Assembly: GCA_934647195.1 (NCBI GenBank)
Contig: CAKUFD010000006.1
Coordinates: forward strand, 1 to 64,000
DNA length: 64,000 bases
Reading direction: 5' to 3'
Source: an uncultured Collinsella sp.
GTDB taxonomy: Bacteria; Actinomycetota; Coriobacteriia; Coriobacteriales; Coriobacteriaceae
Shown here piece after piece: positions 46,559-61,797 of the stretch. Within the stretch, counting starts at the first letter, position 1; each line of letters begins with the position of its first letter. Made by a program: the position numbers and the translations under genes. Under the pieces are notes generated by a model that worked only from the letters and a program-made list of their open reading frames with translations, was not told the origin of the DNA and made no database searches.

Positions 46559-46707
46559 GACGTCCGCCTTAATCGAATACCGCTACAAACGTGAACTAAC
46601 ATACCCTTTACGCAACCTTGACGTATGGTTGATGTTTGCGGGCGTAGCTATTTTCTCGGCAATCGACGATTTGGTAAAGCGTTTTAAGCATTTTGGGAAG
46701 GAAAGAG

Positions 46708-47092
46708 GCGAAGTGGGCCGATAAGCCGGGTTCTGTCGTGGACGATCATTTATCTTTGCCCACGCACCAAGGTGCGCGGTGCAGCAGTCGCACGCAACCC
46801 GAACGCGGACCGGGCCAGCCCATAGCGTTCCTATTCGCGTTTGCTCCGGATGGGGTTTACCAAGCCGCCGCGTCACCGCGGCGCTGGTGGTCTCTTACAC
46901 CACCGTTTCAGCTTTTCCCTTTACGTGCGCCAAGGCGCGCGCAGGTGGGAGTCTTCTTTTCTGCGGCACTAATCCGTCGGGTCACCCCGCCTGGCCGTTA
47001 GCCAGCATCCTGCCCTGCGGAGCCCGGACTTTCCTCACGGACGACATGCCCCTGACGGGACTGCGTACGCGCGATCGTCTGGCCCACTTCGC
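46708..47092 (-). ncRNA. rnpB: RNase P RNA, bacterial type A
   Basis: On the minus strand the universally conserved GAGGAAAGTCCGGGCT and the 3' ACAGAACCCGGCTTA are present, with the ends GCGAAGTGGGCC and GGCCCACTTCGC complementary as the P1 stem. About 385 bases, a normal size for the type A fold. It is the catalytic RNA that matures tRNA 5' ends. A minus-strand -10 (TACAAT, 47106-47101) lies seven bases ahead of the 5' end, supporting the boundary. Confidence 0.97.
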
Positions 47093-55287: not shown

Positions 55288-56373
55288 TTACTCCTGTTCG
55301 TCACCAAAGCTGATGCCGAGCATTTTTGCTTCGCGCACCAAATCGCTCTCGGGATCAACGTATTTTAGTTTGCCGGCGACTTCCGCAAGCGGGACTCGGC
55401 ACATTTTTCCATCGCGCTGGGCAACCATGAAGCCAAACTCGCCCTCAAGGCAGCCACGAGCGGCTTCGACGCCGCACTGGGTGGCAAAAACGCGGTCTTG
55501 AGCATCGGGTTCGCCGCCGCGTTGGGTGTGACCAGGGATGGCAACGCGGGTCTCGCGTCCGGTAACGCGCTCGATATCTGCCGCGAGGTCGTAGGCAATG
55601 GAGGGCGAGGTGCGGGCGGCAACCTTCTTCTTGTACTCCTTCTTGGGCAGGGCTGCGTCTTCCTTGGAGATGGCGCCCTCGGCCACCACGACGATGGCAA
55701 AGCGGCCGCCGTTATTGATGCGCTGCTCGATGCTGCGCTCAACGGCCTTGAGGTCGTAGGGAATCTCGGGGATCAAGATGATGTCGGCGCCGCCTGCGAC
55801 ACCGGCGTAGAGGGGAATCCAGCCAACTTTATGGCCCATGATCTCGATCACAAAGACGCGGCCATGGCTCGAGGCGGTGGTGTGGATGTCGTCGATGCAC
55901 TTGGTGGCAACCTCGACTGCGCTCGTGAAGCCAAAGGTCATGTCGGTGCCCCAGGTGTCGTTATCGATGGTCTTGGGCAGGGCGATGACGTTCAGGCCCT
56001 CTTCGCGCAGGCGGTTCGCCGTCTTGGTGGATCCGTTGCCGCCCAGCATGAACAGGCAGTCGAGCTTGAGCTTATGGTAGGTGTGTACCATGGCGGGAAC
56101 CTTTTCCACGCCGTCGGCCTCGGGCGTGTCCAGCAGCTTGAACGGAGTGCGGCTCGTGCCCAGGATGGTGCCGCCGCGCGTAAGGATGCCGCTGAAGTCT
56201 GCAGACGTCATAACGCGAAAACGGCTGTAGATGAGGCCTTGATAACCATCCTCAAAGCCATAGAACTCAACGGGCTCTGGGGAGCAGTTAGTGAGTGTCT
56301 TGACGATTCCTCGCATGGTGGCGTTCAGCGCCTGGCAGTCGCCGCCGCTGGTAAGAAGTCCAACCCTGAGCAT
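55288..56373 (-). CDS. pfkA: 6-phosphofructokinase
   Basis: A 361-residue glycolytic enzyme of the PfkA superfamily, phosphorylating fructose 6-phosphate. The substrate loops are GGNGS (111-115) and PKTIDNDT (133-140), then MGHKVGWIP. Gly at the third-last loop position favours ATP as donor, whereas PKTIDND (Lys134) is also seen in PPi-dependent enzymes; this mix resembles actinobacterial ATP-PFKs. GAGGAA precedes the ATG. First gene of a pfkA-mscL pair. Confidence 0.93.
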   Translation of the reverse strand: MLRVGLLTSGGDCQALNATMRGIVKTLTNCSPEPVEFYGFEDGYQGLIYSRFRVMTSADFSGILTRGGTILGTSRTPFKLLDTPEADGVEKVPAMVHTYHKLKLDCLFMLGGNGSTKTANRLREEGLNVIALPKTIDNDTWGTDMTFGFTSAVEVATKCIDDIHTTASSHGRVFVIEIMGHKVGWIPLYAGVAGGADIILIPEIPYDLKAVERSIEQRINNGGRFAIVVVAEGAISKEDAALPKKEYKKKVAARTSPSIAYDLAADIERVTGRETRVAIPGHTQRGGEPDAQDRVFATQCGVEAARGCLEGEFGFMVAQRDGKMCRVPLAEVAGKLKYVDPESDLVREAKMLGISFGDEQE

Positions 56374-56489
56374 GGTATTCCTCGCAGTGTGTTAGGTATT
56401 GATAGACGAAAGAAAGTTTACCGCAACTCGTGTCTCTTTATGGGTGGCTGACAAGTCTGTAACCATCATGGTTATGTCAGTTTTCTATC

Positions 56490-56720
56490 AGGTGATGTCG
56501 GGCGCGCCGGGCGTGCGTTGAGGTCGGCGTTGGCTGACATGCGTGCCCAGGCAGCGCGGATGGACCACGGGATGCTTCCGGCGGGTCGGCGACACTGGTT
56601 GACTCGGGTGCCTAGGTAGTGCGGGCGAGGCCATGGGATGCTTCCCGTGGAGCGTCGGCGTTGGTTGGCGCACCCGCCCAGGTGATGTGGGCCGGACTGT
56701 GGGTTTTCTCGACGGGTTTG
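56490..56720. repeat. Degenerate tandem repeats of about 62-69 bases
   Basis: Units beginning GTCGGCG start at 56523, 56585 and 56654 and share the ordered blocks GGTTG, TGCCCAGG, GTGCGGGC and GGGATGCTTCC with variation. A partial unit lies on the left (from about 56490). The tract is non-coding, between pfkA's promoter region and the efflux-pump leader. Confidence 0.7.
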
Positions 56721-56772
56721 CCGGCTGGCGCACAGTCTGGGTGGGGCTCCTCAGCGAGCTCTTCGTTACTTT

Positions 56773-56801
56773 TTGTGAAGTCACAGGATTCATGGTACAA
56801 A
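56773..56801 (+). promoter_or_regulatory. Promoter of the efflux-pump leader
   Basis: TTGTGA (56773-56778) and TACAAA (56796-56801) are separated by exactly 17 bases. Transcription would start near 56808-56810, right at the leader ORF start codon. Confidence 0.6.
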
Positions 56802-56809
56802 AGATGGCA

Positions 56810-56851
56810 ATGAACCAAAGGCGGGTTCCCAGCTCATGCTGCTATGAGTGA
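56810..56851 (+). CDS. Leader peptide of a ribosome-mediated attenuator
   Basis: A 13-codon frame, MNQRRVPSSCCYE, ends with TGA at 56849-56851 (an in-frame ATG at 56804 would make it MAMNQRRVPSSCCYE). It starts at or near the predicted transcription start, so it may be leaderless, as is common in actinobacteria. It spans the complete 5' arm and loop of the terminator that follows. That layout is the one used when a ribosome stalled by an antibiotic on the leader frees the downstream gene. No homology is claimed; the call rests on position. Confidence 0.55.
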   Translation: MNQRRVPSSCCYE

Positions 56852-56866
56852 GGGACCCGCCTTTTT
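56819..56866 (+). terminator. Attenuator terminator upstream of the MFS pump
   Basis: AGGCGGGTTCCC (56819-56830) pairs with GGGACCCGCCT (56852-56862) with one bulged T and an inner CTCAT/ATGAG stem, followed by TTTTT. It lies between promoter and pump gene, so it must be bypassed for the pump to be made. The leader ORF covers its 5' arm, which a stalled ribosome would mask. Confidence 0.8.
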
Positions 56867-56918
56867 GTGTGCTCGCGGCCGTTGCGTGCGACCGCTGATC
56901 GATAGGGGATAGAGAACG

Positions 56919-58433
56919 ATGGATAACGAGCGTTTGAACACGACTCCCGCAAAGGATGATTGCAATAGCGTCGCGAATTCGCCCATGTGCGGCCCTTCTG
57001 CCGAGGAGCGCCGCCGCATTGCCCTTGAGGGCGATACCCATGGCAAGAACAAATGGGCGATTCTCTTTACCGTGCTTGTTATGACGTTCATGTCCACGCT
57101 CGATTCGAGCATCGTCAACGTGGCACTGCCCGTGATGCAAAAGGCCCTTGCCGTGAGCCTGGCCGATATCCAGTGGGTTTCCACAGTTTACCTCGTGGCC
57201 ATTTGCGCCTCGATGCTCATCTTTGGGCGCCTGGGCGATATGCTTGGCAAAGTCTGGCTCTTCCAGGCGGGCGTCGCGCTCTTTACGATCGGGTCGCTTT
57301 TGTGCGGCCTTTCGCATACGTTTGCGATGCTGTTGGTCTCGCGCTGCGCACAGGGCATCGGCGCTGCAGCGGCCATGGCAAACAACATGGGTATCATCAC
57401 CGAGTCGTTTCCCGCCAAGGAGCGCGGGCGCGCGCTGGGTTTGCTCGCGAGCTTTGTGGCCCTGGGCATGATGTGCGGCCCCGTGCTGGGCGGTGTGATC
57501 GTATCGTCTTTGCCGTGGGAGTACATCTTTCTTATCAACGTGCCTGTGGGCGTCGTGTCCTTTGTCGCAGGTCTCAAGACGCTGCCGCATGTGCGCCCCG
57601 ACCGCCGCGACATCACATTCGATCTGGCTGGTGCCTGCGCGCTCGTGCCGGCGTTGGTTTTGCTGCTGTGCTCCATCACCTTTATGGGTGAGGGGGCTTC
57701 ACTCAAGATCTCAGGTATGCTGCTGGTCGGCCTGCTACTCATGGTGCTGTTCGTGCGTATTGAGCTTCGCGCGGAGCAGCCGCTTGCGCGCTTGGGCGTT
57801 TTCAAGAGCCTTACCTTCAACATCAACGTGCTCGCGACGCTCATCAGCTTTATCGCCATCGGCGCGAGCGAGATCATCCTCCCGTTTTATTTCCAGGATG
57901 CACACGGCTTCTCGCCCAGCCTCTCTGGTTTTCTCTTCGCCGTGATTCCGCTCGTAAACATCGTGGTGGGGCCGCTGTCCGGCTCCCTTTCCGACCGCGT
58001 AGGGTCGCACATCCCTACCTGTGTGGGCCTGTTTATCTACTCCGTTGGCCTTGCTGCGGTGGGGTTGCTCAACGAGCACAGTTCGCTTCCGGTGATTGTC
58101 GGCGCTGTGGCGCTGATGTCTTTGGGCACTTCGACGTTCCAGTCGCCCAATAATTCCCTGTTCATGAGCGCGGCTCCGCTGGACGCTCTCGGTTTTGTGG
58201 GAAGTCTATCTGCCCTTTCGCAGAACATGGGCATGGCTCTGGGAATCTCGGGCGGCATGGCGATTCTCTACGGCAAGATGGGCGAGGCCGCGGGCAGGCC
58301 GGTCGCGGGCTATGTGGCAGGCCGGCCGGATATCTTCTTCTACGGCTACCGCTGGGCCCTCATGAGTGTGGCCGCCCTTGTGGCCGTGGGTTTTGTCCTG
58401 TGTCTGGTGCGTGCGGCTCGCGCTCGTCGCTAG
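56919..58433 (+). CDS. DHA2-type MFS multidrug efflux transporter
   Basis: A 504-residue transporter of the EmrB/QacA type with about 14 membrane helices. Motifs: STLDSSIVNVALPVMQKAL in the first helix, IFGRLGDMLGK (MFS motif A) and LGPVLGGVIV-type GPVLGGVIVSSLPWEYIFLI (motif C). It likely exports drugs or other hydrophobic compounds by proton antiport. Expression is probably gated by the leader and terminator upstream. A release-factor-like gene follows 18 bases later. Confidence 0.93.
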   Translation: MDNERLNTTPAKDDCNSVANSPMCGPSAEERRRIALEGDTHGKNKWAILFTVLVMTFMSTLDSSIVNVALPVMQKALAVSLADIQWVSTVYLVAICASMLIFGRLGDMLGKVWLFQAGVALFTIGSLLCGLSHTFAMLLVSRCAQGIGAAAAMANNMGIITESFPAKERGRALGLLASFVALGMMCGPVLGGVIVSSLPWEYIFLINVPVGVVSFVAGLKTLPHVRPDRRDITFDLAGACALVPALVLLLCSITFMGEGASLKISGMLLVGLLLMVLFVRIELRAEQPLARLGVFKSLTFNINVLATLISFIAIGASEIILPFYFQDAHGFSPSLSGFLFAVIPLVNIVVGPLSGSLSDRVGSHIPTCVGLFIYSVGLAAVGLLNEHSSLPVIVGAVALMSLGTSTFQSPNNSLFMSAAPLDALGFVGSLSALSQNMGMALGISGGMAILYGKMGEAAGRPVAGYVAGRPDIFFYGYRWALMSVAALVAVGFVLCLVRAARARR

Positions 58434-58451
58434 CGTGCTAGTCTTGGGGAC

Positions 58452-58832
58452 ATGGAGGAACAACGCCTGACATATCGAGAGTACGCCGCGTTTGCGCAAC
58501 AAACGGCGGCTGAGATTGCCCGCGACTGCGAGGTGGACGTCTTTCGCGCTACCGGTCCAGGCGGGCAGGGCGTGAACACCACCGATTCAGCCGTGCGCAT
58601 GCGTCATCTTCCCACGGGGATTGTAGTCACCGCGCGCGAGAGCCGCAGCCAGTTTCAAAATCGCGCATCGTGCGTTCGCAAGCTCCAAGAGGAGTTCCGC
58701 CGTCGTGCCGTGCCGCCCAAGGTGCGCCACGCTACCAAGGTCCCGGCTTCTCAGCGACGTCGTCGCCTCAAGGACAAACGCATGCGCTCCGACCTCAAAG
58801 CAACACGCCGCCGCATCACAGGCGACGAATAA
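58452..58832 (+). CDS. Peptide chain release factor-like protein (GGQ domain only)
   Basis: A 126-residue protein with the peptidyl-hydrolase motif [16 protein letters not shown] (GGQ at 37-39) and a basic, Arg/Lys-rich C-terminal tail. It lacks the codon-recognition domains of RF1/RF2, like ribosome-rescue factors such as ArfB and mitochondrial C12orf65. It may free stalled ribosomes. Its place 18 bases after a pump with a predicted translation-stalling leader suggests a shared translation-stress role; this is inference. Confidence 0.82.
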
Positions 58833-61639: not shown

Positions 61640-61716
61640 CGGGACGTGGCGCAGTTTGGTAGCGCGCCTGCTTTGGGAGCAGGATGTCGCAGGTTCGAAT
61701 CCTGTCGTCCCGACCA
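61640..61716 (+). tRNA. tRNA-Pro (anticodon TGG)
   Basis: A 77-base cloverleaf: acceptor CGGGACG/CGTCCCG, anticodon loop TTTGGGA reading CCA codons (anticodon TGG), T-arm CAGGTTCGAATCCTG, and encoded CCA at the 3' end. Confidence 0.96.
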
Positions 61717-61723
61717 TATTCTT

Positions 61724-61797
61724 GCGGGCGTAGTTCAATGGTAGAACCCCAGCCTTCCAAGCTGATGACGCGGGTTCGATTCCCGTCGCCCGCTCCA
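61724..61797 (+). tRNA. tRNA-Gly (anticodon TCC)
   Basis: A 74-base cloverleaf: acceptor GCGGGCG/CGCCCGC, anticodon loop CTTCCAA (anticodon TCC), T-arm GCGGGTTCGATTCCCGT, encoded CCA. It follows tRNA-Pro by seven bases in one transcript. Confidence 0.96.

Follow-up and report, generated by a model that had tools for sequence, protein, structure and literature searches.

A conserved leader RNA as a candidate transcription attenuator of an efflux pump gene in Collinsella

The gene for a DHA2-like MFS efflux pump in a 64,000-nucleotide (nt) stretch of Collinsella DNA (the window) is preceded by a short leader in which a promoter-like site, an invariant sequence core and an intrinsic terminator are found together. 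All coordinates given here are positions in the window, and L and G numbers denote the related loci and genomes compared. Attenuation of the pump gene is likely. We suggest that it is exerted by an RNA attenuator about 60-80 nt in length that is conserved and confined to Collinsella, in which two nascent hairpins (H1 and H2) would act as the antiterminator and a leader peptide would not be needed; for this reading as a whole we see the chances as evenly balanced. Within it, the H1/H2 antiterminator is a proposal that comes from folding predictions. Judged from the comparison of related leaders, the element would represent a new, narrow RNA attenuator family of a known kind, in which the RNA itself is likelier to be the switch than a peptide. 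The original prediction for this locus was attenuation through a leader peptide; its attenuation part is supported by our analysis, and peptide sensing is unsupported as a conserved mechanism.

The inverted repeat of the terminator is followed by TTTTT, and the pump starts 52 nt on (Table 1). A 65-nt stretch containing it folds at -33.2 kcal/mol (z -5.31), and none of 200 dinucleotide shuffles folds as well. This bears out the strong terminator that had been proposed before a DHA2 pump, with the pump itself best described as DHA2-like, though below threshold: its top NCBIfam model, TIGR00711 (efflux_EmrB), scores 216.8 bits, just short of its curated cut-off (230.2). A simple terminator scan does not have this site among the 6 that it lists, which we assume is due to its stem and loop limits. 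The terminator fold is present in all seven leaders that carry the element (the window, L001, L006, L007, L010, L055 and L087) at -24 to -33 kcal/mol. A terminator between promoter and gene that is kept in relatives, the arrangement of an intrinsic transcription attenuator, is found in 7/7. In L006, L007, L010, L055 and L087 the distance from the U-tract to the pump start is 14-28 nt, some of these starts being assumed. Because of this short distance there is no space for a separate promoter after the terminator in five of the seven leaders, and expression from the visible promoter must cross the terminator.

Table 1. Positions of the leader features and the pump gene in the window
Feature	Positions	Strand	Details
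Promoter-like site	56773..56801	+	TTGTGA (56773-56778), 17-bp spacer, extended -10 TGG-TACAAA (hexamer 56796-56801)
Proposed leader ORF	56804..56851	+	15 codons from 56804 or 13 from 56810; stop TGA 56849-56851
H1, candidate antiterminator hairpin	56812..56828	+	GAACC (56812-56816) with GGTTC (56824-56828)
Intrinsic terminator	56817..56866	+	arms 56817-56837 / 56844-56864, U-tract 56862-56866
Invariant core GGTTCCCAGCTCA-N-GCTGCTATGAG	56824..56848	+	one copy in window, 0 expected in shuffles
H2, second nascent hairpin	56830..56841	+	CAGC (56830-56833) with GCTG (56838-56841)
DHA2-like MFS efflux pump gene	56919..58433	+	504 aa; ORF and family match

Between the upstream gene pfkA and the pump, the promoter-like site comes first and the terminator second, in agreement with the earlier claim that the sole visible promoter drives into the terminator. 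The promoter, for which ideal spacing had been claimed, has a 17-bp spacer and an extended TGG, and it is weaker than had been stated. It matches 8 of 12 consensus letters, and a strict consensus scan of 55500-58800 returned 0 sites, where shuffled sequence gives 0.8 on average; the scan misses the site because the -10 is without its last T. What argues for a promoter is comparative, since TGGTA precedes the leader in 7/7. L087 has the promoter-like site TTGACG-18-TATAAC. A -35 with at least 4 matches at a spacing of 15-19 is present in five of the seven, with none in L007 (2/6) and L055 (3/6). We also observed a conserved box like TTTTGCTGTGAAG upstream of the -10, at 56769-56780 in the window and also in L001, L006, L007, L010 and L055. 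Its distance to TGGTA is 12, 12, 35, 25, 25 and 34 nt, respectively, and because of this variation the box cannot serve throughout as a -35 with constant spacing. An upstream RNA hairpin of TTTTG..TGTGAAG with TTCATGGTACAAAA was set aside, since its folds differ among leaders and TGGTA behaves like a -10.

Across leaders the core is GGTTCCCAGCTCA-N(1-3)-GCTGCTATGAG. It is invariant even though the pumps that follow mostly have no more than 56-65% residue identity to that of the window. Core identity is 25/25 between the window and L001 and 24/25 between the window and L006, L007 and L055. With the aligner free to gap, the upstream 100 nt give 66/97 identities with L001 and 57-58 of 82-87 with L006, L007 and L055, and the downstream 50 nt give 37/47 and 27-29 of 39-45. 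A separate block, GAACC, is conserved in 7/7 at 5-15 nt from GGTTC. When the RNA is folded as far as roughly the 3' end of the core, H1 (GAACC/GGUUC) and H2 (CAGC/GCUG) are predicted in all seven leaders, and addition of the 3' arm gives the terminator. H2 is retained in L087 as CAGCU/AGCUG despite a 2-nt insertion. The two arms of the terminator differ in conservation, with 0/9 variable columns in the 5' arm versus 7/9 in the 3' arm (5/9 when L087 is left out; p 0.002 and 0.03, respectively, by Fisher's test, for rows that are not independent). A frozen 5' arm and a drifting 3' arm are as expected for a 5' arm that takes part in two folds or is used by a binder.

We hypothesize the following order of events. 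Transcription would start at or near the GAACC block, and the nascent RNA would first form H1 and H2. As the 3' arm emerges, the far stabler terminator would invade both hairpins and transcription would stop, so that the pump would be off by default. A signal that stabilizes H1/H2, or slows or blocks the refolding, would allow the polymerase to read through into the pump gene; candidate signals include a small molecule, an RNA-binding protein and polymerase kinetics. The 5' arm would be frozen since it is needed in both folds, and perhaps by a binder too, and the 3' arm, which would serve the terminator alone, would be free to drift. Three features of the hairpin stand beside this scheme. An ATG at 56844-56846 in the terminator loop (GCTATGAG) is invariant in the window and six relatives, which could be chance; it opens in the pump frame in L006, L007, L010 and L087, whereas the frames that it opens in the window, L001 and L055 are just 22, 19 and 100 codons long, respectively. 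A three-way junction, AUAGC/GCUAU, is possible in some leaders, is absent from L010 and is partial in L001. The apical loop may resemble a tRNA D arm.

Several results count against an H1/H2 switch. The nascent form does not clearly exceed dinucleotide shuffles in stability (z -0.88 to -2.21), 6-21% of shuffled leaders also contain an H1 of 5 bp, and H1 alone is no stabler than shuffles. Since the H1 pairs never vary, covariation neither supports nor rejects this hairpin. RNAalifold on the seven leaders finds the terminator only, with 11 pairs and 0 double changes, and the CUA of the core is explained by neither fold. In addition, there are just seven members, from few independent lineages.

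These results bear on the first of three competing explanations, in which a constitutive or partial terminator keeps the pump low and filters upstream read-through, with no switch and with H1/H2 as incidental. At equilibrium the terminator wins by far, at -24 to -33 versus -10 to -14 kcal/mol, and the stability of H1/H2 is unexceptional. At other Collinsella pumps (L027 and L031) this place is taken by plain terminators whose sequence is unrelated and which show no H1-like fold. The pumps of L006 and L055 are preceded by a co-directional methyltransferase gene. However, a plain terminator leaves unexplained why the 5' arm, the loop and the separate GAACC block are invariant when the 3' arm drifts. 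Moreover, the window and L001 have no co-directional upstream gene to insulate against, because pfkA is divergent in both. We regard this explanation as unlikely, though it is the one that survives best among the alternatives.

The second alternative retains the leader peptide, at least in the window's own clade: antibiotic-stalled or slow ribosomes on MNQRRVPSSCCYE would break up the terminator, in the manner of bmrB or vmlR. The predicted open reading frame (ORF) of 13-15 codons does exist. Its 13-codon form reads ATG AAC CAA AGG CGG GTT CCC AGC TCA TGC TGC TAT GAG TGA, an in-frame ATG upstream gives 15 codons, and by its coordinates it spans the 5' arm and loop of the terminator, as had been described. 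The +1, if assumed near 56808, would place its ATG at +3, and no Shine-Dalgarno sequence was seen before the 13-codon ORF in the window. In L001, the one close relative, the ORF is identical. Six of the seven leaders keep an open reading phase through the core; in this phase L055 has an ATG that opens 26 codons, running past the terminator, and L010 has only a TTG start, with 40 codons. The architecture is also like those of bmrBCD (PMC4191407) and vmlR (PMC9226507).

Against a peptide, the ATG-to-TGA ORF is kept in only 2/7 leaders, the window and L001. L006, L007, L010 and L055 have ACG in place of the ATG and a 5' arm one or two letters shorter, and no in-phase start lies upstream of the core in L006, L007 and L087 (3/7). 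The stop is not conserved in position and shifts beyond the terminator in relatives. Conserved leader peptides before homologous pumps were thus found as far as L001 and no further among these leaders. The original prediction had named lost or frameshifted leader codons in close relatives as evidence against itself: the codons of L001 are intact, and in L087 the 2-nt insertion inside the core breaks the reading phase. Coding-type conservation, that is, synonymous changes and indels in threes, was not seen in the core. Its nine codons have 0 synonymous changes between clades, and the lone nucleotide change, TGC to AGC, alters the residue. The H1 spacers of the seven leaders, at 7, 7, 6, 6, 5, 5 and 15 nt, are not coding-type indels either. 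Nine codons with no synonymous change, in front of pumps that are mostly only 56-65% identical, argue that the RNA (or DNA) letters are constrained and not the peptide. Because of these findings we reject the leader peptide as a conserved sensor, and we consider its operation in the window's clade improbable.

Least probable by our estimate, and very unlikely, is a DNA operator, in which a repressor or roadblock protein binds the invariant block and the overlap with the terminator is chance: the invariance is indeed at the nucleotide level and in six leaders the -10 is preceded by another conserved box (TTTTG..TGTGAAG), but the block spacing varies (5-15 nt between GAACC and GGTTC, plus the 2-nt insertion in L087), the block falls exactly on the terminator in 7/7, and no regulator family was found in the 8 neighbouring proteins scanned at L006, L007, L010 and L055, a set in which 2/8 are without a family and which leaves out small ORFs.

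Transcriptional riboswitches resemble the RNA attenuator that we favour, as they have conserved nucleotides without a conserved peptide and two exclusive folds with a terminator. The Collinsella leader differs from them in being very short and narrow and in having no known aptamer or Rfam match. At the gathering score none of the seven leaders matched Rfam, and 56400-57000 of the window had no match up to E 5. A riboswitch of a known class is therefore rejected.

The core sequence GTTCCCAGCTCAWGCTGCTATGAG occurs once in the window and in 5/65 Coriobacteriaceae genomes, at a single site in each; a sixth genome, G057 (the source of L087), has the version with the 2-nt insertion. A covariance model built from the seven leaders finds the same 6/65 family genomes at 57-85 bits, at one locus each, directly before a pump homologue. 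The remaining forward or new family sites score at most 25.7 bits. At E <=0.05 there are matches in 8/65 genomes, of which G014 and G061 have low scores (25.2 and 21.7 bits, respectively). G004 has a second site that is likewise weak, at 25.7 bits, and is known from its alignment only. Since a pump homologue at E 1e-90 is present in 56/65 family genomes versus 6/65 with the leader, most of these pumps do without it. Across the class, a pattern search found 5/396 genomes, including L086 with 3 mismatches. The class-wide search with model R1 found 7/396 at E <=0.01. Four of these are the bearers known by pattern and one is G057; the match in G268 is a terminator of ordinary appearance that separates convergent genes and lacks the apical loop, and that in G270 was seen as an alignment only. 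No exact copy of the core was found in viral contigs and no BLAST match to the element in plasmids. With one copy in the window and one locus per bearing genome, a mobile or repeated element is rejected.

In a tree of 49 pump proteins (L115, L137 and L028 were dropped for length), the element is found in two well-supported sub-clades of an 11-row pump clade, one comprising the window, L001 and L087 and the other L006, L055, L007 and L010. In the rows that separate the two (L002, L003, L005 and L004) the pump is preceded by a different leader or by none. Its presence in two separate sub-clades of one pump clade indicates that the element is old. The simplest reading of the tree is that an old element was lost or replaced in the intervening rows; two independent gains would be a less simple one.

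Other leaders stand before the same pump family. The C. aerofaciens-type loci (L118-L136 and L008-L024; 35 loci, some from the same genome reached twice, with 18 distinct sequences) have a different terminator before the pump and a nearly invariant block, GTTCCGATTCCGTAGGCGGG. In the three leaders for which it was computed, a hairpin GUUCCG/CGGGAC overlaps the 5' arm of that terminator. A third kind, at ten loci (L088, L089, L090, L091, L092, L093, L094, L096, L097 and L137), lies directly upstream of the pump start, with conserved GGGGAGGCGCG..CAGGCGCGTGGAT..TCCGCG..CCTGGGAGG and no terminator, and ends at the Shine-Dalgarno sequence. Of its 26 predicted pairs in nine aligned loci, 6 still pair after changes on both sides, and this leader is a candidate translational regulatory RNA. 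By eye, L002, L003 and L005 share a leader motif, CCGCGGGAACGATAGCGCGG, upstream of the pump, with a possible relationship to GCGATAGCGC in the third kind. No Rfam match at the gathering score was obtained for the other pump leaders scanned, including L002, L003, L005 and the third kind. A more far-reaching form of our proposal is a minimal RNA sensor: the nascent H1/H2 of a 60-80-nt leader would directly bind a drug, a metabolite or a dedicated protein and open the pump without a leader peptide. Such a sensor would be one of several unrelated leader RNAs that Coriobacteriaceae place in front of this pump family. We offer this as a speculation that we consider unlikely.

Among known systems, bmrBCD of Bacillus subtilis has a terminator and mutually exclusive hairpins before a multidrug transporter, and its induction by antibiotics requires a translated leader of 53 aa (PMC4191407). 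The Collinsella leader has the terminator before a multidrug transporter and, by prediction, alternative hairpins, but it has no conserved leader ORF and is about 60-80 nt long, and its pump is an MFS rather than an ABC transporter. The vmlR resistance gene of B. subtilis is attenuated via a translated leader, with an upstream ORF (uORF) that has its own Shine-Dalgarno sequence, an anti-antiterminator and a pause hairpin (PMC9226507). Both systems have an intrinsic terminator before a resistance gene and an antiterminator encoded upstream that can form first, predicted in our case; in contrast, none of the three vmlR features is evident in the Collinsella leader. The ilvB-II motif of Corynebacterium, which presumably works via a uORF (PMC10272879), is comparable to our element as a conserved motif of actinobacteria whose terminator stem precedes a single gene. 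All its representatives carry a start in frame with the stop, as opposed to just 2/7 Collinsella leaders, and this difference also speaks against a peptide. We found no report of the element in the literature, including term searches in PMC8040213, PMC2864571 and PMC11109978, within a coverage that mostly excludes subscription journals.

At the protein level, the window pump shares 94% identity with its C. bouchesdurhonensis counterpart (L001). In the window, pfkA lies upstream of the pump on the opposite strand and a release-factor-like gene lies downstream. Upstream of the promoter-like site, a degenerate tandem repeat occupies 56516-56716 (unit 65-66 bp, 2.3 copies) and is mostly absent from L001. 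Elsewhere in the window, an RNase P class A RNA is encoded on the minus strand at 46706-47090 and two tRNA genes lie at 61640-61794.

RNA control of drug pumps is known chiefly from Bacilli, mostly through translated leaders. The locus described here cautions against taking a short ORF that spans a terminator as evidence of a leader peptide before relatives have been checked. If our reading is true, a peptide-free pump attenuator in common human-gut Actinomycetota would provide a compact system for finding the signal that induces the pump, and the natural leaders with and without the ORF would be ready-made tests.
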